This document shows positions 2,440 through 32,752 of a DNA stretch of 64,000 nt, piece by piece; the first letter of the stretch is position 1, and each line of letters starts with the position of its first letter. The stretch spans positions 124,001 to 188,000 of the forward strand of contig JACRPF010000005.1 of NCBI GenBank assembly GCA_016214035.1, written 5' to 3'. The DNA is from Spirochaetota bacterium. GTDB taxonomy: Bacteria; Spirochaetota; Brachyspiria; Brachyspirales; JACRPF01. The notes below the pieces were generated by a model. That model saw only the letters and a program-made list of their open reading frames with translations. It ran no database searches and was not told the DNA's origin. A program made the position numbers and the translations under genes.

Positions 2440-2479
2440 AGTTTGTTCTCCTTTTCAGAAACGCGTACTACTACCGTAC

Positions 2480-2508
2480 AGTATAGACACGTACAGAGCC
2501 GCTGTCAA
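2480..2508 (-). promoter_or_regulatory. Sigma70-type promoter of the GH31 gene
   Basis: Read on the minus strand: TTGACA (2508-2503), a 17-base spacer and TATACT (2485-2480). The predicted start of transcription is near 2473, giving a leader of about 35 bases that carries AAGGAG before the ATG at 2439. Confidence 0.75.
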
Positions 2509-2634
2509 TGGATTTTCAAGAATAAGTATAGGCAACGGCGTTCCAGCCTGAATATCCATACATGTTCCGGTTTCTCTATTTTTATTTATCGTGCCGTTAT
2601 GTATACTGTAAAGAACGATAAGGGCAGGTATGCC

Positions 2635-4734
2635 ATGCATATGAAATTGTTGGTTATCGCTCTCGCAATCCTCACCTCGCTGCAGACACAGGGCGCTTTC
2701 ATGATCGCCGATTTCAGCAGCGGAAAGACGCTCGGTGCGATTACGACCGCCGGCGTAACGGTTTCGCTGTCATCCAATGAGAACGGTCCCGCACTTATCA
2801 TGGAGACCGCACCCGGCGTCGAATCCCCGGTGGTCACCGTTGCCGCATCGAACGGCTGGGACCTTTCCGCATATGGCGAAATCACATTCCCGATTATGAA
2901 CCCCGGCGATGAACAGCTCTCGGTTCGCTGCCGCATCGACAGTGCGCCGAAAGGAACCGGCGGCTCGAAACAGGAGATGAGACGCAATGAACTCACGATG
3001 AAGGTCGATCCGGGGAAGACACTCATGTTCCGCATAACACTGACACCCATGCCCGTCGGCGGCACCATGACCGACCCGAAGGAATTCATCGGCATACGCA
3101 GAGCGCCGTACAGCGGCAGATATTATCATGTTGATAACATACGCGCGATATCGCTCATCGTGAACAAATCGGCAAAGAAAAATACAGCGGCAGTCGGCAG
3201 TATTATCGCCGGCGGCACTCCGATTCCGCCGGAAAAAATGCCGGACAAAATGTTCCCGCTCATCGACGGATTCGGGCAGTTCAAACACAGGGACTGGCCG
3301 GGAAAAGTGCACTCGCTCGATGAATTACGGAGCAACAGTGTCGTTGAGGCGGCGGGGCTGAAAACCAACCCCCGGCCGGCGTCGTGGAATAAATTCGGCG
3401 GCTGGAAAGACGGCCCGGCGCTTAAGGCAACGGGCTTTTTCCGCACCGAAAAACATGACGGCAAGTGGCAGCTTGTCGACCCCGACGGGAAACTTTTTTT
3501 CTCGGTGGGTCTTGACAATGTGACCTTCGGCAATTTTACGCCGCTTGATGACCGCCGTCACTGGTTTCAAGCATTGCCGCCCGAGGATGAAACACATCGC
3601 CCGTTTTTCAACGACTTCACCGGGGCTATCTCACGGTACTACGGCGGAAAGAAAGTGCATGCATTCAATTACTTCCGTTATAATCTGTTTCGTAAATACG
3701 GCGAGAACTGGAAAGACCTCTTCACCGAAGTGTCGATGCAGCGCTTACCCGCGTGGGGTATGAATACCATCGGCAACTGGTCGGCACCGGAGATCTATTC
3801 ACGCGGCAGGCTGGCATACACGCCAACCGTTTATACGTCGGGACCCATCATCGCCGGGTCATCGGGACACTGGTCGAAGTTCAAGGATGTATTCCATCCC
3901 GATTTCAAATCAAATCTCATCACGACGATGACGGCGCTGTCGAACACGTTCAACGATCCGTGGTGCCTCGGGTATTATGTAGACAATGAAATAAGCTGGG
4001 ATGACGACACATCGCTCGCGCTCGCAACCATAGTGTCGCCGCCTTCGCAGGAAGCAAAGAAGGTATTTGTCGGCGTACTCAGGGAACGCTACGGTGATAT
4101 ACGCAGACTGAACGAAGTCTGGGGCACCGCGCATGATTCGTGGAACGCGCTGCTCGGCAGTACCAACGCGCCGTCGAAGGATAAAGCCCGCACTGACCTC
4201 ACCAATTTCACCGGCACCATCGCCGAGACGTATTTTAAAACGGTGCGCGATGTGCTGAAAACATATGCGCCGAACCATTTGTATCTCGGGTGCCGCTTTG
4301 CGTGGCTCAACTGGCTTGTCGTTGAGATCGGCGGTCGTTATTGCGATGTGGTAAGTTTCAATATCTATATGAAAAGCTGGAAAGAGAGCAGGACGATGTC
4401 GGCACGTGCTGCCGGCGATAAACCTTACATCATCGGCGAATTCCATTTCGGCGCGCTCGACCGGGGCCTCTTCGACCCGGGCAATGTACCGGTAAAAGAT
4501 CAGGCCGAGCGCGCGGCCGCGTACAAACGTTACCTCATCGACGCGCTCAACGACACGCAGTTGGTGGGCTGTCATTATTTCATGTACATCGATTCGCCGG
4601 TGACGGGGCGCTGGCTTGACGGCGAGAACCTTCAGGTAGGGTTCATCGATAATTGCGACACGCCGTACGCGGAGATTGTTTCAGCCGCGCGGGAAATCGG
4701 CGATACGATGTATTCGATCCGCTCGGGAAAATAA
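2635..4734 (+). CDS. Secreted agarase-like (GH50-like, clan GH-A) glycoside hydrolase
   Basis: The frame is open from 2443, but the signal peptide begins at MHMKLLVIALAILTS, so ATG 2635 (or 2641) is chosen; AGGGCAGG precedes it. The mature protein has an N-terminal beta-sandwich (FMIADFSSGKTLG onward) and then a barrel with the agarase-type run WQLVDPDGKLFFSVGLDN. The likely acid/base Glu is in YYVDNEISWD near residue 452 and the likely nucleophile in YIIGEFHFG near residue 602. It probably hydrolyses an algal or mucin-like galactan outside the inner membrane; the exact substrate is unknown. The protein ends shortly after the barrel, whereas its paralogue at 20317-24402 carries a long C-terminal extension. 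The two share ordered motifs throughout, which makes this the intact reference for the interrupted copy. Confidence 0.85.
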   Translation: MHMKLLVIALAILTSLQTQGAFMIADFSSGKTLGAITTAGVTVSLSSNENGPALIMETAPGVESPVVTVAASNGWDLSAYGEITFPIMNPGDEQLSVRCRIDSAPKGTGGSKQEMRRNELTMKVDPGKTLMFRITLTPMPVGGTMTDPKEFIGIRRAPYSGRYYHVDNIRAISLIVNKSAKKNTAAVGSIIAGGTPIPPEKMPDKMFPLIDGFGQFKHRDWPGKVHSLDELRSNSVVEAAGLKTNPRPASWNKFGGWKDGPALKATGFFRTEKHDGKWQLVDPDGKLFFSVGLDNVTFGNFTPLDDRRHWFQALPPEDETHRPFFNDFTGAISRYYGGKKVHAFNYFRYNLFRKYGENWKDLFTEVSMQRLPAWGMNTIGNWSAPEIYSRGRLAYTPTVYTSGPIIAGSSGHWSKFKDVFHPDFKSNLITTMTALSNTFNDPWCLGYYVDNEISWDDDTSLALATIVSPPSQEAKKVFVGVLRERYGDIRRLNEVWGTAHDSWNALLGSTNAPSKDKARTDLTNFTGTIAETYFKTVRDVLKTYAPNHLYLGCRFAWLNWLVVEIGGRYCDVVSFNIYMKSWKESRTMSARAAGDKPYIIGEFHFGALDRGLFDPGNVPVKDQAERAAAYKRYLIDALNDTQLVGCHYFMYIDSPVTGRWLDGENLQVGFIDNCDTPYAEIVSAAREIGDTMYSIRSGK

Positions 4735-10059: not shown

Positions 10060-10116
10060 ATAGCAGCGGACGAAAGTACGTCTGCAATGCTTTATCTATG
10101 CGCCGGAGGCATCATC

Positions 10117-14271: not shown

Positions 14272-15803
14272 GTGTTGCTCAAGCTCTCGATGCAGCGCCG
14301 CAGGTGAAGAATAAACTGCCGTATCGCCGCTACCGCTGTCTGTTCAATCATGAGTTCATGCTCTTCTGCGATACGGGTATCAGCCGTAAGATCATAGAGG
14401 CGTATATTGAGAAATTCAAGGATACCGATGTGGATGCCGTCATGTGCTGTCCGCTGGCGCATCGCACGAATTTATTTCCGTCAAAAGTCGACCCCGGCTG
14501 GAAAACATACGACACGATAACCGATCAGGCGTGGATGAAGCATTTCAAAAACGCCCTGAAATATATTTACGACGGCGGTGATCCGGTGGCCGAGACGCTC
14601 GCCGTCTGCCGCAGACTCGATAAGGGTTTTTTCATCTCCTACCGGATGAACGATCTGCACAGCGTTGAGTTCAAAAACTTTCCCACGCATAACGCCTTCT
14701 GGCGCGAACATCCGGAATACTGGCTTGCCGACACCGACATACATGCCGACTGCAGCAGGGACGATGTGCGCCTGTTCAACTGGATGATACCCGAAGTCCG
14801 TGAGCATTACTTCGCCGTTATCGAAGAACTGGCGACCAGCTACGACGTCGACGGCATTGAACTCGATTTTATGCGCTGCTGGCGTCTGTTCCGCGATAAT
14901 GAGACCGAAGCGGGAGTCCCGGTGCTGACCGCATTCGTACAACGCATCCGCGCCATGCTCGACCGTCTCGGTAAAGCACGCGGAAAATATCTGCAGCTCT
15001 GCGTACGCGTACTCAGCACGCCTGAGCGCGGCCGGAAATTCGGCATCGACGTCGGCGCATGGGACAGGCAGGGACTCATCGATATGGTGAATGTATCAAA
15101 CTGTCTCGTCAACAGCACCGAAGTGGGCATCGAATCGTACAAGGAAATTGCCCCGCAGTGCCGCATCTACGGCGAGATGAATTCCATCACCCGTCAGATA
15201 AGCGTTCCGGGCGGTTCAAAGTACCGGTACGTGCAGACAGCGCATTACCGCGCCACGGCGCTCAACTATCTTACCCGTGCCGACGGCATCAGCTTTTTCA
15301 ATACCGACTGGGTGTCATTTCCCCAGCGTGAAGCGCTGCTCCCGGTGTTCAAGGGAATCGCCACGGTGCCGTTCCTCCAGCGGCAGTCGAAAGCATATGG
15401 CATCTATTCCGTGCTGGAGTGGTGTCAGGTGGCATCAACACTTCCCGCAAAAGATACGGCACATCTGACGCTGATAACCGGAGAGGATACCGGTAAAAAT
15501 ACATTTGAACGCGCGGTGCTCCGGCTTGAGACCGATGAACAATGCACTGGAATGAACATCGAGGTACGGTTGAACGGCACGTTATTGAACGAATGCGAAC
15601 ACCATGACACCGAGCTTTTCCCGATACCCGATCAGGGATATGCCGCCCTCTATCCCGGGCGCGAGGTGCTCAAATTCTATTCGGTGCCGTTGACACTCAT
15701 CCGCTTCGGGAAAAATGAAGTGATTCTGAATAACAGCTCACGCGGGAAAGGATCGCTCACGTTTGCGGAGATACAACTGGCGCTGTATGCGCCGAAGGAA
15801 TGA
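14268..15803 (+). CDS. GH10-like (GHL) glycoside hydrolase family protein
   Basis: A 511-residue protein with no signal peptide. The centre reads YDVDGIELDFMRCWRLFRDN, the DGI-x-LD-F/Y-x-R signature of barrel proteins annotated as family-10-like glycosyl hydrolases. The C-terminal 130 residues form a beta-sandwich (LTLITGEDTGKNTFERAVLR). It starts at ATG 14268 within the ATGA overlap with the preceding stop and ends in an ATGA with the next frame, so it is translationally coupled in the operon. It probably hydrolyses an oligosaccharide; the substrate is unknown and true catalytic residues are not verified. Confidence 0.8.
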   Translation: MSVAQALDAAPQVKNKLPYRRYRCLFNHEFMLFCDTGISRKIIEAYIEKFKDTDVDAVMCCPLAHRTNLFPSKVDPGWKTYDTITDQAWMKHFKNALKYIYDGGDPVAETLAVCRRLDKGFFISYRMNDLHSVEFKNFPTHNAFWREHPEYWLADTDIHADCSRDDVRLFNWMIPEVREHYFAVIEELATSYDVDGIELDFMRCWRLFRDNETEAGVPVLTAFVQRIRAMLDRLGKARGKYLQLCVRVLSTPERGRKFGIDVGAWDRQGLIDMVNVSNCLVNSTEVGIESYKEIAPQCRIYGEMNSITRQISVPGGSKYRYVQTAHYRATALNYLTRADGISFFNTDWVSFPQREALLPVFKGIATVPFLQRQSKAYGIYSVLEWCQVASTLPAKDTAHLTLITGEDTGKNTFERAVLRLETDEQCTGMNIEVRLNGTLLNECEHHDTELFPIPDQGYAALYPGREVLKFYSVPLTLIRFGKNEVILNNSSRGKGSLTFAEIQLALYAPKE

Positions 15804-15823
15804 CTGCGGGACAGGAGAATGAC

Positions 15824-18286
15824 ATGTTTGCGCTTGAGAAAAGCAATGAATCAGTAGTCCTGCAAAACGGGAAACAATCTCTGCGGATATCATTCGTCAC
15901 CGGATCGACAGCCCGTATCACCTTCACTGAAGATAAACCATTCGGTGTTAAGCCGAGCTTCATCGTGACAACCAGTTCGACATACAATAATTATCGCATA
16001 ACGGAAAACGCCGGTTCAATTTCCATCGCCACAGAAGCCATGAAGATCGCCGTTGACAGACAAACCGGTGCGATGAGCTTTTTCGACAGCAGCGGTCGTC
16101 TTCTGATGCGTGAGCCGGAACGCGGCGGAAAATGGCTGACGCCGAAAGCGGTGTACAGAAATGTGTACCGGAAAGACGCGGCTGTCGCAGCCGGCATGAG
16201 CATCGACGGTGTCCGTGCCGTTGCCGGCGAGAGCGAACGTGTATTCGACCGCCATGCCTTCGAGGCCAAACTCGAATTCGTATTCAGTGAAAACGAAGCG
16301 CTTTTCGGATTAGGTTCGCATGAAGAAGGCTATGGCAATCTGCGCGGGAAGTCGCGGGATCTCTATCAGCAGAACATGAAGGCGGTGGTGCCGTATTTCG
16401 TTTCCACAAAAGGATACGGCATACTCGTGGACTGCTCTTCACTTATGACATTCCATGACGACGCATACGGCTCCTATATCTGGGCCGATGTTGTTGATGA
16501 ACTCGATTACTATTTCATCCAGGGCGACCGCTTCGACGATATCACCCGCGGGTATCATGAGCTTACCGGCGGGGCGCCGATGCTCCCGAAATGGGCGTTC
16601 GGTTATGTGCAGTCGAAAGAGCGTTACGTGAACGCGAGGGAGATGACGGACGTGGTGCGCGAGTACCGGCGTCGTGAAATACCGCTCGATCTTATCGTAC
16701 TCGATTGGAAATCATGGCCGGCGGGTGACGCCTGGGGACAGAAATCGTTCGACCCCGAACGCTTCCCCGATCCGAAAGGATTCACGCAGGAACTTCACGA
16801 CATGCATGCAAAACTGATGGTATCCATCTGGCCCATCATGACCGGCAACTGTCCGGACCAGCGCGAACTTCTTGACCGCGGTCTCATGCTCGGCAATCAG
16901 TCCACCTACAACGCGTTCGATGACGATGCGCGGCGTATCTACTGGGAGCAGGCGAATCGCGGACTTTTTTCAAACGGCGTCGACTCCTGGTGGTGCGACT
17001 GCAGCGAACCGTTCGAGGCGGACTGGACGGGCGCGGTAAAACCTGAGCCGCATGAACGGCTTACCATAAACACGCGGCAGTCGAAGCAGTATATAGACGA
17101 AGGCCTGATCAATGCGTATTCGCTTTTCCATGCACGCGGCATCTATGAAGGTCAGCGCAAGGTATCCGGAAAAAAGCGCGTGATCAATCTGACGCGTTCA
17201 TCCTACGCCGGTCAGCACCGGTACGCGACGGTTACCTGGTCGGGCGATATCTCTGCAACGTGGGAAACGCTCAGGCGTTCCATACCCGAAGGCGTCAACT
17301 TCTGCGCGGCGGGAGAACCGTATTGGAGTCTGGATATCGGCGGCTTTTTCATCAAGAACGATCCGAAGTTATGGTTCTGGCGCGGCGATTACGATAATGG
17401 ATGCCGCGGACTCACCGATGCGTCCATTACCGAACCGGACCCAAAAGACAACGGCTGTACGGATCTCGGTTATTGGGAACTGTATACGCGCTGGATGCAC
17501 TACGGTGTGTTCCTACCCATGTTCCGTTCGCACGGCACCGATGCTCCGCGTGAGATCTGGCGCTTCGGCGAGCCGGGGACGCCGTTCTATGACGCGATTG
17601 CCGCATCCATACGTCTTCGCTACCGGCTCATCCCGTACATCTATTCGCTTGCAGCGCAGGTGACACTGAGTAGTTACACGATGCTCCGCGCGGTGGCGCT
17701 GGATTTTCCCGATGACGCGACCACACATGACCTCATCGACCAGTTCTTATTCGGTCCGGCATTCATGGTCTGTCCCGTGTGCAGTCCGATGTACTATCTC
17801 AGGAATTCAGAACCGATACGCGATTCCGTCAAACGCCGTGACGTCTATCTGCCGCGCGGACGCCGGTGGTATGATTTCTGGACTGACGAAGTGTATGAGG
17901 GCGGACAGACAGTGAGCGCCGACGCCCCGCTTGAAAAAATCCCCGTGTTCGTGCCGGCGGGTTCCATCATTCCGATGTCGCCGGTAATGCAGTATGTAGA
18001 TGCAATCCCCGATGCTCCGTATGAGATCAGAGTCTATCGCGGTGCGGACGCCGAATTCAATCTGTATGAAGATGCAGGCGATTCCTACGGCTACGAAAAC
18101 GGCGAGTATGCCATGGTGAAGCTTTCGTGGCATGACGCCGCAGGTGAATTGGTGATCGCGGAACGTACCGGCGGTTTTTCCATGCTGGTGAAATCGCGGG
18201 AATATCAGATCGTGTTCATCTCAGCACAGGGGCGGAAAACCAGGACGGTCCGATACACCGGGCAGGAGTTTCGCACATGTGTATGA
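15824..18286 (+). CDS. GH31 family alpha-glycosidase with C-terminal DUF5110-like region
   Basis: An 820-residue GH31 enzyme. The nucleophile Asp is in SWWCDCSEPFEADW near residue 392 and the acid/base Asp in VTWSGDISATWE near residue 475. LDLIVLDWKSWPAGDAWG and LMVSIWPIMTGNC are typical of YicI/XylS-like alpha-xylosidases and related alpha-glucosidases. An N-terminal sandwich (NEALFGLGSHEEGYGNLRG) and a C-terminal DUF5110-like domain flank the barrel. The frame is open from ATG 15800, which overlaps the previous stop, but ATG 15824 has AGGAG six bases upstream and is preferred. No signal peptide, so cytoplasmic action on imported oligosaccharides is likely. Confidence 0.92.
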   Translation: MFALEKSNESVVLQNGKQSLRISFVTGSTARITFTEDKPFGVKPSFIVTTSSTYNNYRITENAGSISIATEAMKIAVDRQTGAMSFFDSSGRLLMREPERGGKWLTPKAVYRNVYRKDAAVAAGMSIDGVRAVAGESERVFDRHAFEAKLEFVFSENEALFGLGSHEEGYGNLRGKSRDLYQQNMKAVVPYFVSTKGYGILVDCSSLMTFHDDAYGSYIWADVVDELDYYFIQGDRFDDITRGYHELTGGAPMLPKWAFGYVQSKERYVNAREMTDVVREYRRREIPLDLIVLDWKSWPAGDAWGQKSFDPERFPDPKGFTQELHDMHAKLMVSIWPIMTGNCPDQRELLDRGLMLGNQSTYNAFDDDARRIYWEQANRGLFSNGVDSWWCDCSEPFEADWTGAVKPEPHERLTINTRQSKQYIDEGLINAYSLFHARGIYEGQRKVSGKKRVINLTRSSYAGQHRYATVTWSGDISATWETLRRSIPEGVNFCAAGEPYWSLDIGGFFIKNDPKLWFWRGDYDNGCRGLTDASITEPDPKDNGCTDLGYWELYTRWMHYGVFLPMFRSHGTDAPREIWRFGEPGTPFYDAIAASIRLRYRLIPYIYSLAAQVTLSSYTMLRAVALDFPDDATTHDLIDQFLFGPAFMVCPVCSPMYYLRNSEPIRDSVKRRDVYLPRGRRWYDFWTDEVYEGGQTVSADAPLEKIPVFVPAGSIIPMSPVMQYVDAIPDAPYEIRVYRGADAEFNLYEDAGDSYGYENGEYAMVKLSWHDAAGELVIAERTGGFSMLVKSREYQIVFISAQGRKTRTVRYTGQEFRTCV

Positions 18287-19382: not shown

Positions 19383-20273
19383 ATGATCTACCGAACATTA
19401 GGAAAGTCAGGAATCAAAATCCCCGTTATCGGTCTCGGCACATGGCAATTCGGCGGCGAATGGGGAAAGGATTACACGGCGCAGGAAGTAGTGGAAATCA
19501 TGGCGGCCGCCAAAAGCGTCGGCATCAATTTCATCGATACCGCGGAGTGTTACGGCGATCACCTCTCCGAAAAACTGATCGGCGAGGCCATACACAACGA
19601 GCGGGATAAATGGATCATTGCGACCAAGTTCGGGCACAAGTACAATAAGTTCCAGGATCGCACGGTTGCAAGCAGCCCCGCCGACGTCACTGCGCAGCTT
19701 GAAGCATCACTGCGCGCCCTGCAGACCGATCATGTCGACCTGTATCTGTTTCATTCGCTGAACGATGAGGCATTTAATAATCAGGAAATGTGGACGGTTC
19801 TGCAGAATCATCAAAAGGCGGGAAAAATCCGCGTGCTCGGCATATCGGTCTCACACATGGACAATCCGGGTCAGGTCAAACGGGCAACCGAGGTGGGCGC
19901 TTCGGTTATTGAGATTGCCTATAACCGCATCTGGAAAATCGCTGAGAAAGAGTCGCTGCCGGAATGTCAGCGGCAGAACCTGGGCGTGCTCGCCCGCGTT
20001 CCGCTGGCCTCAGGATATTTGACGGGAAAGTTCAACCCGAACTCGACCTTTGCCGCCAATGACGTGCGGTCGCTGAACGGTCAAAAAGGCGTTGAGCAGC
20101 ATGTGAAACTGGTTGAAGAGATCAGGAATGAAGTACCCGCGGGCGTGCCGATGGCGCACTGGGCTATGGCATGGTGTCTGAAACATCCCGCCGTGCATGC
20201 CGTGCTGCCGGGCTGTAAAAATCCGGCGCAGGTGATCGATAATGCCAGGGCGGCGGAATTACTGGAGCGATAA
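19383..20273 (+). CDS. Aldo/keto reductase
   Basis: A 296-residue NADPH-dependent reductase of the AKR superfamily with the complete catalytic tetrad: Asp and Tyr in FIDTAECYG, Lys in IIATKFGHK and His in VDLYLFHSLND. The C-terminal half has the cofactor-binding pattern ending AVLPGCKNPAQVIDN. AAGGAG precedes the ATG by seven bases. It lies 53 bases after the Gfo/Idh/MocA gene on the same strand, so a shared carbohydrate-processing role is likely. The downstream gene is convergent. Confidence 0.93.
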   Translation: MIYRTLGKSGIKIPVIGLGTWQFGGEWGKDYTAQEVVEIMAAAKSVGINFIDTAECYGDHLSEKLIGEAIHNERDKWIIATKFGHKYNKFQDRTVASSPADVTAQLEASLRALQTDHVDLYLFHSLNDEAFNNQEMWTVLQNHQKAGKIRVLGISVSHMDNPGQVKRATEVGASVIEIAYNRIWKIAEKESLPECQRQNLGVLARVPLASGYLTGKFNPNSTFAANDVRSLNGQKGVEQHVKLVEEIRNEVPAGVPMAHWAMAWCLKHPAVHAVLPGCKNPAQVIDNARAAELLER

Positions 20274-20316
20274 TCGGTTCGCTATCGCCACGAGCTGTCA
20301 GCAGGAAGACATTTAT

Positions 20317-22437
20317 TTATCGTACGATAACCTTCACGGTCTTTTCACCCGTCGCTGATGTGATGCGGCATATATACACGCCGGGTGCCACCCGTCTGCC
20401 GTTATGTGCGGACAGATTCCAGCGTGCGGTGCCGTTGCTCTCGGCAAGAAGTGCCGCGACAGACCGTCCGGAAACACTGTATATCTGCACCGATGCATCA
20501 CGCGACAGATTGGCAAATACTATCGGCGTACTGCCCCGCGACGGATTGTTGACGGCGAATACGCGTTCAAGATCGCGCTGAACGGTGAACAGCCGCGACA
20601 GATCGATGTTGCTTACGATATGCGGAGCGCTTGACGTACCGGCTGTCTGTATCTCCGTGAAAAGATCATAGTGTACTGTTGTGTCGAGCCCTTCGGGAGG
20701 CGTCCACTCGTACGTGTACGTGCCGCCCGACGGTATCTGCATGAGCCCGCGCATGGTGCCGCCGAGCGACAGGAATGAATTGCTCCCGCTTGGTGATATT
20801 CTGAACAGAACAGCAACAGGTTCAATACAGTCCTTCGAAAGTGTGCAGGTGTACCGCATGATGTTGTTTGCCGGGACAAGTTCTATCGTTCCGCCGCTTA
20901 CGGCGAGACGGGGAACGGTGATCGCCGTTACCGGTCCGGTGAGCGATTCCCCATACGCATTGGTGGCGGCGATCCGGTAATAATATGTCATGCCGCATGC
21001 GAGGCCGTCGTTCGTATAGCGGGCGGCATTCGCGGGTGCGGTACCGATGAACGAGTATGTAAGCCCGTCGATGCTGCGGTATACACGATACGCAGACTCG
21101 TTGGTCGCCAGATCTACCCAGGAAAGGACAACAGCGTTGGCGCCTGCGTTGACCGTAAATGATCCGGGCGAATCCGGGATGCGTCCGTCAACGGTATAGG
21201 TCCGTGTGTTCGTGACGCCATTGTTGCCGATCGTATCGCGACCATAAAAGCGCAGTGTCGTGGTAGCCGCGACGGGAAATGAAGTCCCGCCGGTGGTGAA
21301 CTGCGTGAACGGTGAACCGTTGGTCGACCAATAACCATAGTTCTCGTTGACGGCAAGACTGACGGAGAAGGACTTATTTGTCGTGAAATTCGACGGTGCG
21401 CCGGTGATGAGCGGTGCTTCCATGTCCAGATAATTCGTACGATTATTATTTCCTTCGTCCGCTTCCTGTATCCGGTCGGCATCATCCGCCATCGCGCGAA
21501 TCGTATGCGTACCGGCAGTTGCAGTCCATACTGCGGAAGAAGCATCCACGACGATCTTCTGTCCGGGCAGAAGATTGGTCATCTTGACCCCGTACGAGAG
21601 ATAGACGCCGTCAACCCAGAATGTTACCGAGTGATTCGTGAGCGGTGAAGCATACAGACCCGCGTTCGAGAGAACACCGCTGAACGTCACCGTATCGCCC
21701 GGTTTCGGAGCAGACGGAGACCATGAGATACTGTCGACGACCAGGTCGCACTTGATGACGGTATATGTCTGTGTATTTGTCGTGCCATTGTTGCCGAGCA
21801 CATCACGGCCGTAACTGCGCAGTGCAGTTGTCCTGTCAATGAAAATGGATACACCGTTTGTCGTGAACGGCATAAAAGCCGAACCGTTTGTCGACCAGTA
21901 GCCGGTATTCTCATTCACATCGAGGTTGATAGTGAAAGACCGGTTTGTCGTCATTCCCGCGGGCATACCCGACACCGCCGGCGGAGCAGTATCGAACGTG
22001 TACACGAACGTGTCGGTCACGCTCGATACTGTATTGCTTGCGCCGTAGACGCGCAGCGTTGTGGTGCGGTCGATGACGATGGATGTGCCCGCCGTCGTGA
22101 ACTGCTGGAACGCCGATGCGTTCGTCGACCAGTAACCGAAATTCTTGTCGACGTCGAGGTTCACGGTGAAAGAATTATTGGTCAGTACACTGCCGGGGGC
22201 GCCGGTGACCTCGGGTGGTATCTGGTCGGGGGAAAGACCGGAGTTGTAGCGGAGTGTGTACATCGTTTTGCTTAAGCCCCTGCTCGCGACGACCATTTCG
22301 GGATACACGGTATCGCAATTGTCGATGAAGCCGCACTGCCGGTTCTCGCCGTCGTGCCAGCGTCCCGTCACCGGCTGGTCGATAAACTCGAACCAGTGGC
22401 AGCCCACGAGATTGTTGTTCGTAAGCGCGCCCACCAC
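20317..22437 (-). pseudogene. 3' part of a split agarase-like gene: end of barrel, adhesion and sorting domains
   Basis: This frame continues, in phase, the gene ending at 22516; only the TGA at 22516-22518 separates them. The missing bridge translates as LDRGLFSSGLVPSW, matching LDRGLFDPGNVPV in the paralogue at 2635. The first 65 residues complete the glycosidase barrel. Then follow two chitobiase-C-like repeats (each with YWSTN..F..FTT), a CARDB domain (GTHTIRAMADDADRIQEADE), a third such repeat, a fibronectin type III domain (YRVYRSIDGLTYSFIGTA) and a C-terminal FlgD/Por-type sorting domain (VQIYSVSGRSVAALL ... GVYICRI). ATG 22437 has no separate ribosome-binding site or promoter, so independent expression is unlikely. 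Confidence 0.8.
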
Positions 22438-22515
22438 GTAGTTGGAATAGGAAAGGGCACGTCCGGTCTGATTCCAGCTGGGGACGAGTCCCGATGAGAA
22501 CAGGCCGCGGTCGAG

Positions 22516-24402
22516 TCAGCCGAAATGGAATTCGCTGATGATGTAGGGTTTGTCGCCGGCCACCTGATAGGTGATCGACCCGCTGTTCGTCCAGAGCTTG
22601 GCATAGACATTGAAACTGACAACGTCGCAATATCGTCCGGCGGCCTGTGCAGCATGCCAGGTCAGCAGGGCGAAACGGCAGCCGAGATACAGCCGGTTCG
22701 GAGCGAGCGACTTAATGACGTTGCTGACGGTGCTGAAATATTTCGTCGCCGTTTTATCGTTAAAGGCGTAGAGATCGGCATACATCCCCGCGTTGTAGGC
22801 GGGCGGATTGAGATTCAATACGTCGTTCCATGATGCGTAGGAGGTGTTCCACTGGGCGTTGAGCGCCGAGACCAACATATATTTCGCCTGAAGGTCGCTC
22901 ACGAGTGCAATTTTTGCCGCCTGGGTTGCGGGACCACGAAGTGCATCGTACGCCTGCACTACTTCCGCAGCTGCGACATCGGCAGTGGTGGTCGATGTCT
23001 TCCACGGCATCTCGTTGTCCACGTAATAGCCGATGCACCAGGGATCGTTGAGCGATGTGTTTATGACTGCGGACTGCATCTTGGCAACAAGCTCGTTGGA
23101 GAAGCTGATATTGAAAACATCGGGGAACGATGCCGGTACCGCGCCCGATATATTCGTAAGCCGGATAGCTCCGGCGGTACTGATGGTGGCGATATACGGC
23201 ACCCTGCGCTGATTGTAGATGGATGGCTGCGACCAGTTGCCGATAGTATTGAACCCCCAGCTCGGAAGACGCTTGAGGCATGTATCGGCGTAATCAGTGC
23301 TGTAGTTCGAGCCGTACTTCTGCTTGATGACATAACGGAACAGGTTCAGGCCGCTAGAGTTGTAGAATTCGGCATCGTACGCCGGTTTTTCCTCGAACCA
23401 GGTGTCACGCCCCGTCAATGCTGTCCAGTTGCCGTCGTTGACGTTATTAAAACCGTGGGAAAAGAACAGTTTGCCGGCGGGATCGACGAAGTACCATTTG
23501 CCGTTCACTTTTTCCGTGCGGAACGCCCCGGTGGCAGCGCGCGTGGGGCCGTCCTGCCAACCGCCCCATGAATCCCACGATACGGGTTTGGGATTGGCGG
23601 CAAGGTCGTTGACTTCCTGCTCGCGGAACCACGCAAGTTCCTCGGTACAATGTGTTTTCTGCGGCCAGTCTTTGTTCATGAACTGACCGAAACGGTCGAT
23701 GAACGGGAACGCCGCCACGGGAAATGATCCGGGTGTGCCTGTTGCAACAATATTGCCTACATCATAGCGGGCGACCCTGCTTGGTGAGGATATCGTGTAG
23801 ATAATGATGTCGGTGATTCTGTCGAGTGCCGCCATGGTATCGCCGAACGCTGTACCCGGAGCCGTGTTGCCGACCGCGAGCGGTCCCGCACCCTGCATCC
23901 TCGGCGCGGGCATTCCGGCGAAGTACGCAGCATTGTAGAGATTTGAGAGCGGCGTCGGGGTGAGCGGGATGCGGAACGTGCCCGACCTGTTACTCTGAAG
24001 CGCAAGCGTATACGTTTTCGTTACGACAACGGGATATAATGGATGAGGTCCTTTGAGCTGACAAATGACGGTAAGAGGTACCGTATCAAGGTTGGTGACC
24101 TTGAACGTGAGTTCTCCGAACGCGCTGAGATCCCAGCCCGTATTACTCACGATCAACGCGGAAGGATGAACACCGCCTATTGATGAGACCACGCGCATGG
24201 CGGGACCTACCGAGCTCGTCACGGCCGAAAGTGTCGCATTGTTCGGCGTGAACCGTGAAACCTCACCGGCTCTGGAAAAATCGACAATCGTAATCGCTCC
24301 GGACAATTCTGCAGCCATATATATGCAAATGAAAAAAAATACATACCATGCGCGCTGCCGAAAGCGATTATCTATCGTATCATCAGTGTCGCCTTTAACC
24401 AT
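22516..24402 (-). CDS. 5' part of a split secreted agarase-like glycosidase, ended by an in-frame TGA
   Basis: The N-terminal 628 residues of a second agarase-like enzyme. ATG 24402 is used because AAGGAG lies six bases upstream (frame open to 24438). A signal-anchor stretch (YVFFFICIYMAAELSGA) precedes the beta-sandwich and barrel. Catalytic Glu candidates are in YYVDNEMPWK and YIISEFHFG. The frame stops at TGA 22516-22518, one residue after EFHFG, so the product lacks the last barrel unit and should not fold as an active enzyme. The intact paralogue at 2635 has Ala at this position. The possibilities are a nonsense mutation, sequencing error or readthrough. The whole reading frame would run 24402-20317 (about 1360 codons). 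Confidence 0.8.
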   Translation of the reverse strand: MVKGDTDDTIDNRFRQRAWYVFFFICIYMAAELSGAITIVDFSRAGEVSRFTPNNATLSAVTSSVGPAMRVVSSIGGVHPSALIVSNTGWDLSAFGELTFKVTNLDTVPLTVICQLKGPHPLYPVVVTKTYTLALQSNRSGTFRIPLTPTPLSNLYNAAYFAGMPAPRMQGAGPLAVGNTAPGTAFGDTMAALDRITDIIIYTISSPSRVARYDVGNIVATGTPGSFPVAAFPFIDRFGQFMNKDWPQKTHCTEELAWFREQEVNDLAANPKPVSWDSWGGWQDGPTRAATGAFRTEKVNGKWYFVDPAGKLFFSHGFNNVNDGNWTALTGRDTWFEEKPAYDAEFYNSSGLNLFRYVIKQKYGSNYSTDYADTCLKRLPSWGFNTIGNWSQPSIYNQRRVPYIATISTAGAIRLTNISGAVPASFPDVFNISFSNELVAKMQSAVINTSLNDPWCIGYYVDNEMPWKTSTTTADVAAAEVVQAYDALRGPATQAAKIALVSDLQAKYMLVSALNAQWNTSYASWNDVLNLNPPAYNAGMYADLYAFNDKTATKYFSTVSNVIKSLAPNRLYLGCRFALLTWHAAQAAGRYCDVVSFNVYAKLWTNSGSITYQVAGDKPYIISEFHFG

Positions 24403-24495
24403 GATCATCTCCTTACGCCGTTGAGCTGTTTTGATCATGAGTAAGCTTAAACCGGAATCACATGGATAAAACGGAGTTGTTATGGATATTCTTGT

Positions 24496-25416
24496 TTACT
24501 GCCGCAGTAGAGCTCTGAGCACCGCAATCTCATTAGTCATACGCAGAACTTCCGCTTCCGTTGCGTTGATGCAGTCCTCATGCACACGTGTTTCGCGCGT
24601 GTACCCGATTGAACGCTGCCAGCCCAGCGATCGCAGTTTTCTTCGCGCCGCAGCTTTCTGAAACAAAGGACGAGTGTTTGTTTCACCGAGCGGTGCATCG
24701 AGCGGGCTCTTGTCCACACCGAGATACGCGAGCAGTGCACGGGCCATAAAGACATGCCCGTCATCGGACGGATGAATGCCGTCGGGTGTGAACAGAAAAT
24801 GCGGATCATTCCGGTAACGCTGTTCACAGTATCCGGCAATCGCCCGGTGAAGATCGAACACAGCCGCACCCCGGGGCGTATCGTCCATGAGCCATGCGGC
24901 GTATCGCGCGAGTACGTCGTCATATCCGTCATACGGTTCGAGGTAACTGAAATTATTATACGATGCGGGACGCACTTTATTTGAAATGGACTTCGCTTCG
25001 AATGGCGGCGGTGTCATGATGAGCAGTTTCGAACCCGCGTTGCGGACTGCATCAGCAAGTTTCGTCATGCCGCTTTTGTACGCGGAAAACCGTTCCTCCG
25101 AGAACGGATGATAGATGCCGTCGTTCATGCCGTAGCATGCGATGGTGACATCGGGCCGCACGAGTGTAAGCGCACGAGACAGGCGCTCATGCACGCAGGG
25201 CCGCGGAAACGGATGCGCCGGTTCTGACAGACCACTTGCCGTTTCGCTGGAAAGTCCCGCGCTGATGATATCGGTAGTGCGGTCAGGATACAGCGACAGC
25301 AGCGCATAGTCGAGGAACGATACATACGCGCCGCTGTCGGTGATGCTGTCGCCGAGTATAAGTACACGGCATTCGGTAAGATCCAAAGCGGTCATAGGTT
25401 TTGCATTTTTGCTCAT
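24496..25416 (-). CDS. SGNH/GDSL family hydrolase
   Basis: A 306-residue lipase/esterase-like protein. Block I LILGDSITDSG carries the catalytic Ser, block III YGMNDG the Asn, and block V PDGIHPSDDGH the Asp-His pair. No signal peptide. The last 30 residues (EAEVLRMTNEIAVLRALLRQ) look coiled-coil. It probably deacylates a carbohydrate or lipid ester, like acetylxylan or rhamnogalacturonan acetyl esterases of this fold. It lies 26 bases after the cytochrome gene on the same strand and may share its transcript. Confidence 0.9.
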   Translation of the reverse strand: MSKNAKPMTALDLTECRVLILGDSITDSGAYVSFLDYALLSLYPDRTTDIISAGLSSETASGLSEPAHPFPRPCVHERLSRALTLVRPDVTIACYGMNDGIYHPFSEERFSAYKSGMTKLADAVRNAGSKLLIMTPPPFEAKSISNKVRPASYNNFSYLEPYDGYDDVLARYAAWLMDDTPRGAAVFDLHRAIAGYCEQRYRNDPHFLFTPDGIHPSDDGHVFMARALLAYLGVDKSPLDAPLGETNTRPLFQKAAARRKLRSLGWQRSIGYTRETRVHEDCINATEAEVLRMTNEIAVLRALLRQ

Positions 25417-25442: not shown

Positions 25443-27224
25443 CTATAACGAAAGAATATATTCCACGAGCGCGTCGATATCCGCTTCGGGAAGCGATGCA
25501 GTGCTGCCCCGTTTACCTTCGGCATTTCCAACGGTGATGACTTCCTTTATGGACGTATATCGTCCGTCGTGCATATACGGTGCGGTGCGCCACACTTCCA
25601 CGAGCGTTGGCGTCACGAACTCGTTGTCGGTATCGCGCGGACTTTTCGTTCCCACATCATGCAGCTTAAGGTCGGTCGCCATCGGTCCCGTATGACAGGC
25701 GATGCAGCCGGCTTTGCCCGTGAAGAGTGTTTTGCCTTTCTGCGCGGCTGTGCTCAGCGCTCCATTTTTAAGATACGGGCTCGGTGCCGGCGTGAGCGAA
25801 CGCATATATGCGTCGATGGCTTCCGCGTCGCTTTCGGGACGTACGGTGAAAAGGATGAAACGTATGCCGGCGCGCACCGCGGCCTCGGCCGATGCGCGAA
25901 TACCGTGGCTCATCACCGGTGAGCGTTTATGCGCGTTGAGGAGACTGCGCACGTTTTTCGGGTTCCCGAGCCCGTCGTTGAGGAGGTCCCAGTTGAAACC
26001 GTCCACGCGCGCGTCCGGATGACAGCTCGCGCAGCTCTGCCACTGCTGAAAGCATATCGAAGCATCGTTGAAAAGCATCTCTCCTTTGCGCTCGATGCTC
26101 ATCGTGCGGTTTGATGCGAGCATGACCGTTGTCACGTCGTATTCTCCGGACGCAAGATCAACCACCGATATGCTGTCGCTGAAAAAACCGGGTACATATG
26201 CGTTGCCGCCGGAAACGGCGAGCGACCGGAAACCCTGACCGTTGAGCGGTATGCGTTTCCGTAATCCTCCTCCCGCGAGGAATGTCAAATCGTCGGCAAG
26301 CGATGCGGCATTCGTCGATGCGGCGATTTTCTTGTGCAGCGCCGCACGGTCGATGACCGACATCTCATGCGTTCCCTGATGGACGACGAGTATCGATGAT
26401 CCGTCGGGAGTTACGGCCACGCGTGACGGATTCGCCGCACCGCGGTAGGCGTCGTCGAGTACTATCGTCGCCGCGTGAGCGCGTTTCTGTACGTCGATGA
26501 CTGACAGTGCCGCGGTGTACATCCATCCGCGTTCTATCTGCGTGGTCGGCACCATGAAGCGCGCAATGGTGTGCACGGCGTATGCGGTGTTCCCGTCGGG
26601 CGAAAGCGCTATGTGCTCGATAGCGGTGCTGCCGTTGGGGAGCCGAATCTCACTCGCCACAGCGCCGGTTGCGATATCGACGACCGATATCACCGACGCC
26701 GTATACTGCGCATCGGCGCGTGTTGTCGGCAGGAGGTTTGCCACGAACAGCGTGTCGCCGGCCGGACTGAACACGGATGATACGGGTTCACGCGAAACGC
26801 GGACCACTTTTGCAGTTCCATCCGATGTGATGAGCGACACGGTACCGTCAAATCTGTTACAGACCGCAACCATGCCGCCGGGTCCTACTGCCGGATATGT
26901 AGCTCCGTTTCCCGCGGGAATATTCTTTACGATAGTCCCCGAAGCGGGATCGACGACCATGAGCGTTCCGGCGGGGTCTGCTCCCGTGACAAACAGATAT
27001 TTTTTACCGAGCGCAATGCCCGTCGGTGTCGCCGGCACGGCGATGGATTTTTCCATAGCGCACGCCGGCAGCGAAAGAACCAGAATTTTTTTCGTATCCC
27101 TGAGGATGACATAGCCTTTTGTCCCGTCAACGGCGATACCGCAGGGCGAAAGAGCTGTTGTGTCGGCGCTGAAAAGTGCATGTGAAAAAATAATCAGAAA
27201 TGCGGAAACGGTTATTTTTTGCAT
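25443..27224 (-). CDS. Secreted beta-propeller fused to a di-haem MauG/CcpA-like cytochrome
   Basis: A protein of about 593 residues with signal peptide MQKITVSAFLIIFSHALFSA. ATG 27224 is preceded by GGTGGG; the frame is open to 27275. Residues 20-365 form a YVTN-type seven-blade propeller (SLPACAMEKSIAVPATPTGI, YPAVGPGGMVAVCNRFDGTV, HIALSPDGNTAYAV). The C-terminal third has two c-type haem motifs, CASCH near residue 395 and CIACH near 506, with the MauG-like stretch TPTLVEVWRTAPYMHDGRY. It is a periplasmic redox protein, either peroxidase-like or oxidising a protein or organic substrate. The propeller may dock the partner. It lies in a run of secreted genes ending at 29219. Confidence 0.9.
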   Translation of the reverse strand: MQKITVSAFLIIFSHALFSADTTALSPCGIAVDGTKGYVILRDTKKILVLSLPACAMEKSIAVPATPTGIALGKKYLFVTGADPAGTLMVVDPASGTIVKNIPAGNGATYPAVGPGGMVAVCNRFDGTVSLITSDGTAKVVRVSREPVSSVFSPAGDTLFVANLLPTTRADAQYTASVISVVDIATGAVASEIRLPNGSTAIEHIALSPDGNTAYAVHTIARFMVPTTQIERGWMYTAALSVIDVQKRAHAATIVLDDAYRGAANPSRVAVTPDGSSILVVHQGTHEMSVIDRAALHKKIAASTNAASLADDLTFLAGGGLRKRIPLNGQGFRSLAVSGGNAYVPGFFSDSISVVDLASGEYDVTTVMLASNRTMSIERKGEMLFNDASICFQQWQSCASCHPDARVDGFNWDLLNDGLGNPKNVRSLLNAHKRSPVMSHGIRASAEAAVRAGIRFILFTVRPESDAEAIDAYMRSLTPAPSPYLKNGALSTAAQKGKTLFTGKAGCIACHTGPMATDLKLHDVGTKSPRDTDNEFVTPTLVEVWRTAPYMHDGRYTSIKEVITVGNAEGKRGSTASLPEADIDALVEYILSL

Positions 27225-27237
27225 AATCCCACCGTAT

Positions 27238-28290
27238 TCAATGAATTGCTGTGATTTTCTTTGATTTCTTTTCAATGTATACAGAAAAATCTGGATGAAT
27301 TGACAGGGTTGTCGGAGTTAAGCCGAATACTACTTGAACAATCTGAGCATTTGTGTCGTTGGCATAAAGGACTGCAATTGCATGCGATGCATCTATCAAT
27401 CGGTTACTCATTGCCTGCATATTCGAATATACATTAAACTCCGGTTTAATTTTTTTTACTATACTCGAATACGCATTTGTTAACGCATTGCGTGCAATAT
27501 CCACGTATTGTCGTTCATTCCCGGTATAGGCAAATTGAAGCATTCTGTTTTTATCCTCTGCATCGTACCGTTCCCAAATGGAATTTGTTTTCGGCAACAG
27601 CAGTTTGGTTTTTCTTCCATCGGTATATTCTAACGTGCCCCAAAAGGTGCCGTTGCTGATGATGCCATCTATTGTGCAATATGCACCATCGAGTCTGAAT
27701 AACGCGGATATGTGTCCACAATTGGTAACATCGTTATAACAATATGGCTTTGGAATCAATAGAAATGGGCTCAGTGACCCGCGAACAGCGCATTGAAACA
27801 GCCCGAATGAGCGTTGATCTTTTTCTACTATACGCAATTCACATCCCGAGTAAAAATTCTTATCATTATCATATCGCATGTCGGAATAGGAATGAAGAAA
27901 ATACGGGTAGCTTCTTTTAAGTATTTCAATCCTTCCGTAATTGCTGATGCTGACAGAATGATGGTCTATCTCGCTGTTGATTTTTCTGGCGTAACGCAAA
28001 TCTTCACTGCCGAATGTCGCCTCAATCTTTCCGTTATGTAGCTTCAGGTCGTTCAGTAAGAAGTATTCTTCGAATTTTTCCTGTGGATGAGCGATAACGG
28101 CGGTATAGCCATTGCTGGATAGTCCTATCAATAGCTCAAAACCGCTGACTCCAGCTTCTGAATATATTGGACGGATGGAAGAATAGCAGCCAACGTATTG
28201 ATCTCGCAAACTATTTGCACCTGTTAGTTCAAAGGCAGTCACAAGGAAAAGGGATAAAAGAAATGTACGTGTCGTGTGCTGAAACGCCAT
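27238..28290 (-). CDS. Secreted protein of unknown function
   Basis: A 350-residue exported protein (signal MAFQHTTRTFLLSLFLVTAFELTGA). ATG 28290 overlaps the TGA of the upstream gene by one base, so it is translationally coupled. The body is beta-rich with several Cys (CYSSIRPIY, YSGCELRI, FQCAVRG) and no recognised motif. It is noticeably AT-rich compared with both neighbours, a pattern shared with the other orphan secreted proteins in this window. The next gene on the strand starts 14 bases on. Function not assigned. Confidence 0.78.
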   Translation of the reverse strand: MAFQHTTRTFLLSLFLVTAFELTGANSLRDQYVGCYSSIRPIYSEAGVSGFELLIGLSSNGYTAVIAHPQEKFEEYFLLNDLKLHNGKIEATFGSEDLRYARKINSEIDHHSVSISNYGRIEILKRSYPYFLHSYSDMRYDNDKNFYSGCELRIVEKDQRSFGLFQCAVRGSLSPFLLIPKPYCYNDVTNCGHISALFRLDGAYCTIDGIISNGTFWGTLEYTDGRKTKLLLPKTNSIWERYDAEDKNRMLQFAYTGNERQYVDIARNALTNAYSSIVKKIKPEFNVYSNMQAMSNRLIDASHAIAVLYANDTNAQIVQVVFGLTPTTLSIHPDFSVYIEKKSKKITAIH

Positions 28291-29383: not shown

Positions 29384-32300
29384 ATGCATTCCGTCAATCG
29401 TCATATCCACGGCACATCACTTCCAGCTTCATTGATAGCGCTGATAGCTGTCATGTCGGTCTCTTCTATATTATTTGCGCAGTCGCCCGGCAAAGCGCCC
29501 GTTGAGGACGACGAAGGTTTTTTCAAGGCGATGATGACCGCGAAGGGCGGGCAGGGCGACGAGACGAGTGCCGCTTCACGCGTACGGCAGCTCTATGAAG
29601 GAGAGAACATCGTCAAAGGCACCGACCCGGCGGAACGGGTGACGATAGACCTCAACGGTGCGAAGAATATCTATCTGCTGGTGACGGCGCCCAACGGTAA
29701 CGGCAGCGCGCATGCCGTCTGGGGCGAACCGTACCTCATCGATGCTGACGGCAAACGCAAGGAACTTACCAAGCTCAAGCCGAAATCGTCAAAAGTGGGC
29801 TGGGCGAAACTTGAGTTCAATTCGTTCGAAGGTAAACCGCTCGCGGTGAAGGATAAAACATTTTCATTCGGTATCTATGCGCACGCGGACAGCTATGTCC
29901 ATTATGAACTTGATAAGGAATATGCACAGCTCATCGTCTACGTGGGCATCAATAACAGCTCCAAGGGCGGCGGCGCGGTAAAGTTCATGGTCATGCAGGA
30001 GCCGCCGGGAATGAGCAGACTCAATGCCGCCGAGAACATATATCCGCGCCACCTGAAAAAACTCAAGGAAGGATTCGGGAAGGATTTTGATAAATGGGTG
30101 ACTGCTAAAAAGCCCGATGTTGAAAAAAAAGCCATCGATGCTATTGTAAAAAATCTCGGCGAACGTGCCGGCGATATTCCGTCGCGGCTCGCGGCACTTT
30201 CTCAGGCGCAGGGGTATGATGCGGCCCAGTGGCTGTCGCTTTATTTTGCTGCGGTCGAACGCATGGAAACGGTTACCGGTGTACGTGACGGACTTGCGGT
30301 GACCAAACGTATCATACAGCATTTTGCCGCAAAGGACAAACGCGAATCGCTGTACACCGAACTCCGTGAGCTCGATACTGCGCAGACTGCCGCACTGAAA
30401 GAGGACACGGCCGCCTGCATCGCGTTCTCGCAGAAGGTCGATGCGCTCAGGCGAAAGGCGCTGTTCACGCATCCGGGTCTTCAATTCGACGATCTTCTCA
30501 TCAACAAGCGCCAGCCGCCGCTCTTCTCGCACAACTCGGACCAGTATCTTGCACGGCACAGCCGCATCAGCCCGGGTCTTGTCGTCCTCAAGAACTGGAA
30601 AAGCCTGTCGATGACATTGTCATTCCTCACGCGGGACAGACTGCCGCCGGGTTCCATTCTGCATCCCGATCTTTCGTTCGACGGCAAAAAAGTGCTCTTC
30701 TCGTTCGCCGATCACCGCGAGGCCGTACGCGACCGGCGCGCGTTCTTCATCTATGAGGCCGATGTCGACGGCTCATCGATACGGCAGGTCACCGGCACCA
30801 CGAACGACCGCATGGACCGCGTTGAGAACCGCACCACATTCGTCCTTGAGGATTTCGACCCGTGCTATCTGCCCGACGGCGGTTTCATCTTCACGTCAAC
30901 GCGCTCGCAGAACATCGCGCGCTGCCATGCGGGCCGTTACAATCCGGCGTCGCTCCTCTATCGCGGCGAACTCGACGGTACGGGCATCCGTCCGGTCACT
31001 TTCGGCGAAGCGAACGAGATAGACCCGTCCGTGATGAACGACGGACGCATCGTCTATAACCGCTGGGAATATGTGAACCGGCACGACTGCAAATTCCACG
31101 CGCTCTGGACGATATATCCCGACGGCGCGCGCACGGCGAATTTTTACAAAAATCTTTCCACGCAGCCGCTCTCTGTCACCGAACCGAAAGCGGTTCCCGG
31201 AAGCGACAAGGTGATGGCCATAGCAACTGCGCATCACTCGTTCAATGCGGGCACCGTGCTCCTCATCGACCCCAACAAAGGCGACGAAGGCGAAACGCCG
31301 CTCGTGCATCTCACGCCCGAGGTGCAGTATCCCGAATGTCAGGGATATCCGGAAAGCACGTATGCCGAACCGTATCCCATTACCGAAGATCTTTTCTTCG
31401 CGGCATATTCCGATGTGCGTCATATCGGCCAGGGTCAGGTGCAGTACGATAATGCGTACCGCATCTGCCTCGTCTACAACATCGACGGCAAGGCGTATCG
31501 CGAGGAGATATACCGCGACCCGGACATTTCCTGCTTCGAACCGATACCGCTTGCGCCGCGGAAAAAACCCGCCGTGATACCGTCGTCGATAAAAGCGGAG
31601 AACCCGCCCACCGGCACGATGTTCCTGCAGAACGTATATGAAAGCACGCAGCCCATCGACCGCGGCAGCATCGCATACTTACGCATCAACGAGATATTCA
31701 ATCAGCCCACGCCGAAAGTCCCGCACCGTAGCTGGGTGATGGACGAAGTGCCCAAGCAGGTGCTCGGCATCGTTCCTGTTGAGAAGGACGGTTCCGCGTT
31801 TTTCCGTGTTCCCTCGGGGAAGGCCTTCCAGATACAGGCGCTCGATTCTAAATCGATGGCGGTGATGACGATGCGTTCGTTCGTCTACTCGCATCCCGGC
31901 GAAAACCAGAGCTGCATCGGCTGTCACGAGTCGAGGACCGCCGCTCCGCCCACGGCCGTTATGCCGTCGGTGAAAGCCCCGCGCGATTTGCTGCCGCCGC
32001 CGGGACCGGCGCAGGACGAAGGCTTCAACTACGTATCGCAGGTGCAGCCGGTGCTCGACCGCTACTGCATTCGCTGTCACGGACTCGACAACAAAGCCGA
32101 CGGCAAGGTGAATCTTCTCGGCGACTACATCGTGAAGAATTCCGACCGCTATCCGAGCGGACCGCTCAGAATGCCCAGATCATACTGGACGTTCTTCTCG
32201 ATTCCCGGCATGATCAAGATGGCGGACCGCAATCTTGAGACGCCGTTCAGCAAGCCCAAGGATTATTTCTCGCATACAAGCAGACTTCCCGCGATCCTGT

Positions 32301-32752
32301 CGAACGGACACAACGGTGTTCATGTTGATGATGACAGCTGGAAACGTATCATCACCTGGCTCGACCTCAACGCGCAGCTCTACGGCAATTTCTCGTGGAA
32401 CCGCCGTGAAGACCGCGTGCCGTCGAAGGAAGGCGAGGAGAAGCTCAGAAGCCGCGTGAAGGAACTCTTCGGCGACGCAATGGCCGAAGCGCCGTTCAGC
32501 GCGCTCGTGAACAACGGCACGCTTACGGAGAGCAGAATACTCAAGGCGCCGCTCGCGGCGTCTGCCGGCGGCTGGGGTCAGCTCACACCCGCATGGGAAT
32601 CCACGAACGACGCGAGTTTTCTGGAAATGCAGTCGCTCGTTGAACGGTCGCTAACACCGCTTCCGTATCGCGATATTGCGGGTACGTGCGGGCGGGGGGC
32701 AGAGAAGTGCGTGTGCGGATCGTGCTGGGTGAGGAGTCTGGTGAAGCGTTAA
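29384..32752 (+). CDS. Secreted multidomain cytochrome, hydrazine-synthase-alpha-like, with NPCBM domain
   Basis: A 1122-residue exported protein. After the signal (ALIAVMSVSSILFAQ), residues about 60-205 match an NPCBM carbohydrate-binding domain (DKTFSFGIYAHADSYVHYEL). Residues about 370-820 form the HzsA-type middle region with propeller-like repeats (DPCYLPDGGFIFTSTR, RIVYNRWEYVNRHD). Two c-type haem sites follow: CIGCH near residue 843 and CIRCH near 894. The extreme C-terminus is Cys-rich (GTCGRGAEKCVCGSCW), perhaps a metal site. Such HzsA-related proteins are frequent in PVC bacteria that do not perform anammox; their reaction is unknown. The NPCBM domain suggests a carbohydrate substrate or surface. 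Likely periplasmic or outer-membrane associated. Confidence 0.87.
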   Translation: MHSVNRHIHGTSLPASLIALIAVMSVSSILFAQSPGKAPVEDDEGFFKAMMTAKGGQGDETSAASRVRQLYEGENIVKGTDPAERVTIDLNGAKNIYLLVTAPNGNGSAHAVWGEPYLIDADGKRKELTKLKPKSSKVGWAKLEFNSFEGKPLAVKDKTFSFGIYAHADSYVHYELDKEYAQLIVYVGINNSSKGGGAVKFMVMQEPPGMSRLNAAENIYPRHLKKLKEGFGKDFDKWVTAKKPDVEKKAIDAIVKNLGERAGDIPSRLAALSQAQGYDAAQWLSLYFAAVERMETVTGVRDGLAVTKRIIQHFAAKDKRESLYTELRELDTAQTAALKEDTAACIAFSQKVDALRRKALFTHPGLQFDDLLINKRQPPLFSHNSDQYLARHSRISPGLVVLKNWKSLSMTLSFLTRDRLPPGSILHPDLSFDGKKVLFSFADHREAVRDRRAFFIYEADVDGSSIRQVTGTTNDRMDRVENRTTFVLEDFDPCYLPDGGFIFTSTRSQNIARCHAGRYNPASLLYRGELDGTGIRPVTFGEANEIDPSVMNDGRIVYNRWEYVNRHDCKFHALWTIYPDGARTANFYKNLSTQPLSVTEPKAVPGSDKVMAIATAHHSFNAGTVLLIDPNKGDEGETPLVHLTPEVQYPECQGYPESTYAEPYPITEDLFFAAYSDVRHIGQGQVQYDNAYRICLVYNIDGKAYREEIYRDPDISCFEPIPLAPRKKPAVIPSSIKAENPPTGTMFLQNVYESTQPIDRGSIAYLRINEIFNQPTPKVPHRSWVMDEVPKQVLGIVPVEKDGSAFFRVPSGKAFQIQALDSKSMAVMTMRSFVYSHPGENQSCIGCHESRTAAPPTAVMPSVKAPRDLLPPPGPAQDEGFNYVSQVQPVLDRYCIRCHGLDNKADGKVNLLGDYIVKNSDRYPSGPLRMPRSYWTFFSIPGMIKMADRNLETPFSKPKDYFSHTSRLPAILSNGHNGVHVDDDSWKRIITWLDLNAQLYGNFSWNRREDRVPSKEGEEKLRSRVKELFGDAMAEAPFSALVNNGTLTESRILKAPLAASAGGWGQLTPAWESTNDASFLEMQSLVERSLTPLPYRDIAGTCGRGAEKCVCGSCWVRSLVKR

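Follow-up and report, generated by a model that had tools for sequence, protein, structure and literature searches.

A lone in-frame TGA in a GH50 glycosidase gene of a Spirochaetota bacterium is probably a recent nonsense mutation

Introduction

Why does a glycosidase gene that otherwise reads cleanly from end to end contain one stop codon in the middle of its catalytic domain? The question is raised by a minus-strand frame of 1374 codons (24438..20317, by translation) in the window, the 64,000-nucleotide stretch of a Spirochaetota genome analysed here, in which a TGA at 22518..22516 (C1:146516-146518 on the contig) forms codon 641 and every other codon is open. The original prediction left four options for this TGA: a very recent nonsense mutation, a sequencing error, phase variation and programmed readthrough. 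Our analysis favours the first two, while phase variation and programmed readthrough found no support. That a recent nonsense mutation disabled one of the GH50 paralogues, of which there are at least five, emerged as the best explanation, and a reasonably probable one.

Results and discussion

The codons around the stop read AGC GAA TTC CAT TTC GGC TGA CTC GAC CGC GGC CTG TTC, and the six directly after the TGA encode LDRGLF in phase. Sequence and translation thus bear out the claim that the two frames flanking 22516-22518 share a phase and are bridged by this motif. Since coding potential is high immediately on either side of the TGA, and residues 642–731 carry on the alignment with solved GH50 enzymes past the stop, a chance juxtaposition of two frames can be ruled out. 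The downstream part was also considered as a split gene translated by reinitiation. Past the TGA, an in-frame start codon is not met until 26 codons downstream, where a GTG lacks any visible ribosome-binding site, and the first ATG lies 73 codons downstream; on these grounds we rejected reinitiation and treat the downstream part as the rest of the same gene. At the 5′ end, the ATG at 24402 (codon 13) sits behind AAGGAG and is better placed than the ATG at 24438. It is likely the true start, judging from this context, and gives a gene of about 1360 codons, the length originally proposed.

Membership of the GH50 family was assigned from the whole (beta/alpha)8 barrel, which matches the solved enzymes AgWH50C (PDB 5z6p; E 1.9e-81) and Aga50D (PDB 4bq2; E 2.2e-78) and shares with them both predicted catalytic glutamates and the residues that surround these. 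The open part upstream of the TGA (22519..24438, minus strand; residues 1–640 in the open reading frame list) comprises an N-terminal domain and, from the matched GH50 structures, most of the TIM barrel. It includes E476, the predicted acid/base catalyst in the motif DNE (23011..23013, minus strand), and E636, the predicted nucleophile in the motif EFHFG (22531..22533, minus strand), which was aligned to the solved GH50 enzymes. These correspond to the two conserved catalytic glutamates of clan GH-A (PMC11079163) and are invariant in an alignment of seven sequences (A1), every invariant column of which is retained in the interrupted gene. The stop had been placed one residue past EFHFG; it does lie just C-terminal of the motif, but follows it directly, five residues past E636. 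The description "agarase-like" holds as far as the family is concerned, whereas agarase activity itself is a guess from family membership, since GH50 consists mostly of agarases but also contains beta-1,3-glucanases (PMC11079163).

Downstream of the TGA, the end of the barrel continues in the same phase (residues 642–735; 22234..22515, minus strand), with R693 and E698 conserved. As the stop removes this part of the barrel together with conserved active-site residues such as these two, the truncated product should be inactive. Unlike Aga50D and AgWH50C, the interrupted gene has an in-frame stop ahead of the last part of the barrel and encodes further domains beyond the barrel, all on the minus strand: a CARDB domain (21436..21747; PF07705, E 4e-11), an fn3-like domain just below the Pfam cut-off (20938..21171; PF00041, 23.4 bits against 25) and a T9SS type A sorting domain followed by the natural TAA stop (20317..20547; TIGR04183, 38.7 bits against a cut-off of 23). 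Of the sorting and adhesion domains predicted downstream, the sorting domain is real, and the others were found as CARDB and fn3-like domains. Elsewhere in the genome, which encodes many proteins with sorting tails, a 2255-aa open reading frame gives a weak SprA-like match (C22:128381-128917; 60 bits against a cut-off of 200) and is possibly a divergent T9SS translocon.

The genome contains at least five GH50 genes, and the four other than the interrupted one are intact. One of them lies in the window (2443..4734, plus strand; 763 aa) and is 43% identical over the catalytic part; it is uninterrupted and carries EFHFGALDRGLF, in agreement with the claim that an intact paralogue matches the LDRGLF bridge. 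The stop site is occupied by alanine in 86 of 88 homologues, by threonine in one and by valine in one, and cysteine and tryptophan are each found in none of the 88. All 88 therefore carry a sense codon where the interrupted copy has TGA, as is expected of a pseudogene made by a nonsense change. Because alanine codons are at least two changes away from TGA, either the immediate ancestor would have carried another residue, such as glycine or serine, as an unseen intermediate at a near-invariant site, or two changes occurred. This counts against a simple one-step mutation.

Also against the mutation reading, the phylum genomes and contigs searched contained no orthologue from the same species, and none above 50% identity, that might show the codon before the change. 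The nearest relatives of the interrupted gene are about 48–49% identical to it. A search of 393 genomes of the phylum at E 1e-60 returned only its own genome, G001 and G040, with nothing above 49% identity outside the locus, and the 80 GH50 proteins in a scan of the genome-contig collection were at most 44% identical. Viral contigs gave no GH50 match and plasmids only distant ones.

How long the gene has been interrupted was assessed from the state of the remaining frame. Conserved columns deviate at 3 of 36 positions after the stop and at 20 of 113 before it, so that conservation is no worse downstream. With no selection and 0.5% neutral divergence, the chance of no further nonsense codon in the frame is 53%, and that of an undamaged frame about 7% when indels are included at an assumed 0.1 per substitution; at 2% divergence these chances fall to 8% and practically zero. 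The lesion is recent, if real. The original prediction had called the undamaged downstream part unexpected for an old pseudogene; the rest of the gene is indeed intact, but at 0.5% divergence this is not in itself unexpected. In having one in-frame stop, no further damage and intact paralogues, the gene resembles single-nonsense bacterial pseudogenes, from which no difference was established.

On the reading that we prefer, the original gene would have been one of five or more GH50 genes, and its product a secreted glycosidase bearing both accessory and sorting domains. A nonsense change would recently have turned codon 641 into TGA, recently enough that no further lesion has accumulated. Translation would then break off inside the barrel, so that the last part of the barrel, the accessory domains and also the sorting tail would be missing, with no dedicated readthrough to rescue the product, and the cell would tolerate the loss because its GH50 paralogues remain.

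Coding potential was scanned across 2.36 Mb, or 45% of the genome. Two clear genes interrupted by a single stop were found: the GH50 gene, with TGA, and a gene for a MoxR-type AAA ATPase (C10:103403-104392), with an in-frame TAG at C10:103847-103849. The two parts of the latter match successive portions of a single Pfam domain, and a relative in genome G001, 83% identical, carries GAG in place of the stop, one base from TAG. As the scan recovered 51% of simulated stops, about four such interruptions are expected in the 2.36 Mb, or roughly 1.7 per Mb. The isolated TAG lesion alongside the TGA therefore indicates a low genome background of isolated nonsense lesions, and this background is ordinary and spans more than one stop codon. 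A corresponding scan for frameshifts found none and is uninformative, its simulated sensitivity being only 10%; a literature search yielded no papers on premature stops in genome assemblies.

This background bears on the main rival explanation, that the assembled sequence at 22516-22518 is wrong or represents a minority allele in a strain mixture, and that the living population carries an intact GH50 gene. About 3% of random substitutions are nonsense, and the estimated frequency of interruptions, if all were errors, would correspond to about 5–6 wrong bases per 100 kb, which is plausible for a consensus sequence. The assembly consists of 22 contigs and is 98.2% complete and 4.65% contaminated, only a single base separates the MoxR stop from the codon of its relative, and a consensus error in the GH50 gene would look identical to a mutation. 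Against this, reaching TGA from the consensus alanine codon would take errors at two neighbouring bases. Ordinary nonsense mutations could also give the same frequency of interruptions, which fits them and a consensus error rate equally well. We regard an error or minority allele as a possible but clearly less favoured explanation, and infer that the TGA is a real mutation, and a recent one.

We then considered whether the TGA could be decoded. Genome-wide reassignment was rejected from stop usage, as TGA terminates 414 of 1020 long coding frames in 2.36 Mb of the genome. Selenocysteine was likewise rejected. An Rfam search of the genome for tRNA-Sec gave nothing over the cut-off, the matches being Ser, Leu, Tyr, Arg and Phe tRNAs; SelB (TIGR00475) gave only matches below the cut-off, which is what other translation GTPases would produce; and window positions 20000-25000, scanned with Rfam, gave no SECIS match. 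The likeness to selenoproteins is thus limited to the in-frame UGA, at a site which is alanine rather than cysteine in homologues. A suppressor tRNA was also discarded: no stop-reading anticodon occurs among the tRNAs read, which are the 42 tRNA matches other than C3:118392 and C18:192806, and tRNA-Trp is normal, since its anticodon is CCA and its anticodon stem has five pairs, not the four that promote UGA reading (PMC13092985).

Programmed or functional readthrough, by which selenocysteine or a near-cognate tRNA would yield some full-length enzyme, would account for the clean open frame downstream, and UGA followed by C is a documented context of inefficient termination in bacteria (PMC5289835). 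This context is ordinary here, however, as C also follows 23% of the normal TGA terminators of the genome, and folding of the 120 bases that follow the stop was no stronger than for shuffled sequences (z −0.93), giving no sign of a stimulatory structure. The negative searches for decoding machinery, the lack of cysteine and tryptophan at the site among the homologues, and the use of TAG rather than TGA in the MoxR gene all argue against readthrough, as does the position of the stop within the catalytic barrel, which would not give two useful isoforms. We therefore consider programmed readthrough very unlikely. A variant in which tRNA-Trp or another near-cognate tRNA would read the leaky UGA-C at a low but useful frequency, tuning the amount of surface enzyme, seems to us less likely still.

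Phase or antigenic variation that toggles the gene at codon 641 might suit an enzyme that is secreted and carries adhesion-type domains. The stop site shows neither a slippery tract nor a tandem repeat, though, and no near-identical copy that could act as a donor in gene conversion was found, the best other copies being 68–69% identical. Such switching is the least credible of the explanations considered.

If the ordinary reading, mutation or error, is true, the stop codon is of little wider importance, as one of several redundant GH50 genes has been disabled or mis-assembled. The case carries a caution: an undamaged frame downstream of a single in-frame stop does not on its own argue for recoding, and before recoding is claimed one should examine the decoding machinery of the genome and how many comparable lesions it carries.

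The interrupted gene lies in a region for polysaccharide degradation (window 124-4734, 10087-18286 and 20317-25416) with two GH31 and two GH50 genes, which also encodes a beta-helix/laminin-G protein, a GHL10-like protein and an SGNH/GDSL hydrolase. Two genes away from the broken GH50 gene, a MauG/di-haem cytochrome c peroxidase domain is encoded (25443-27275). Further on, a 1122-aa protein (29384-32752) matches the middle domain of hydrazine synthase alpha (PF18582) together with NPCBM domains; the PF18582 match probably reflects a domain common to other proteins rather than hydrazine synthesis.
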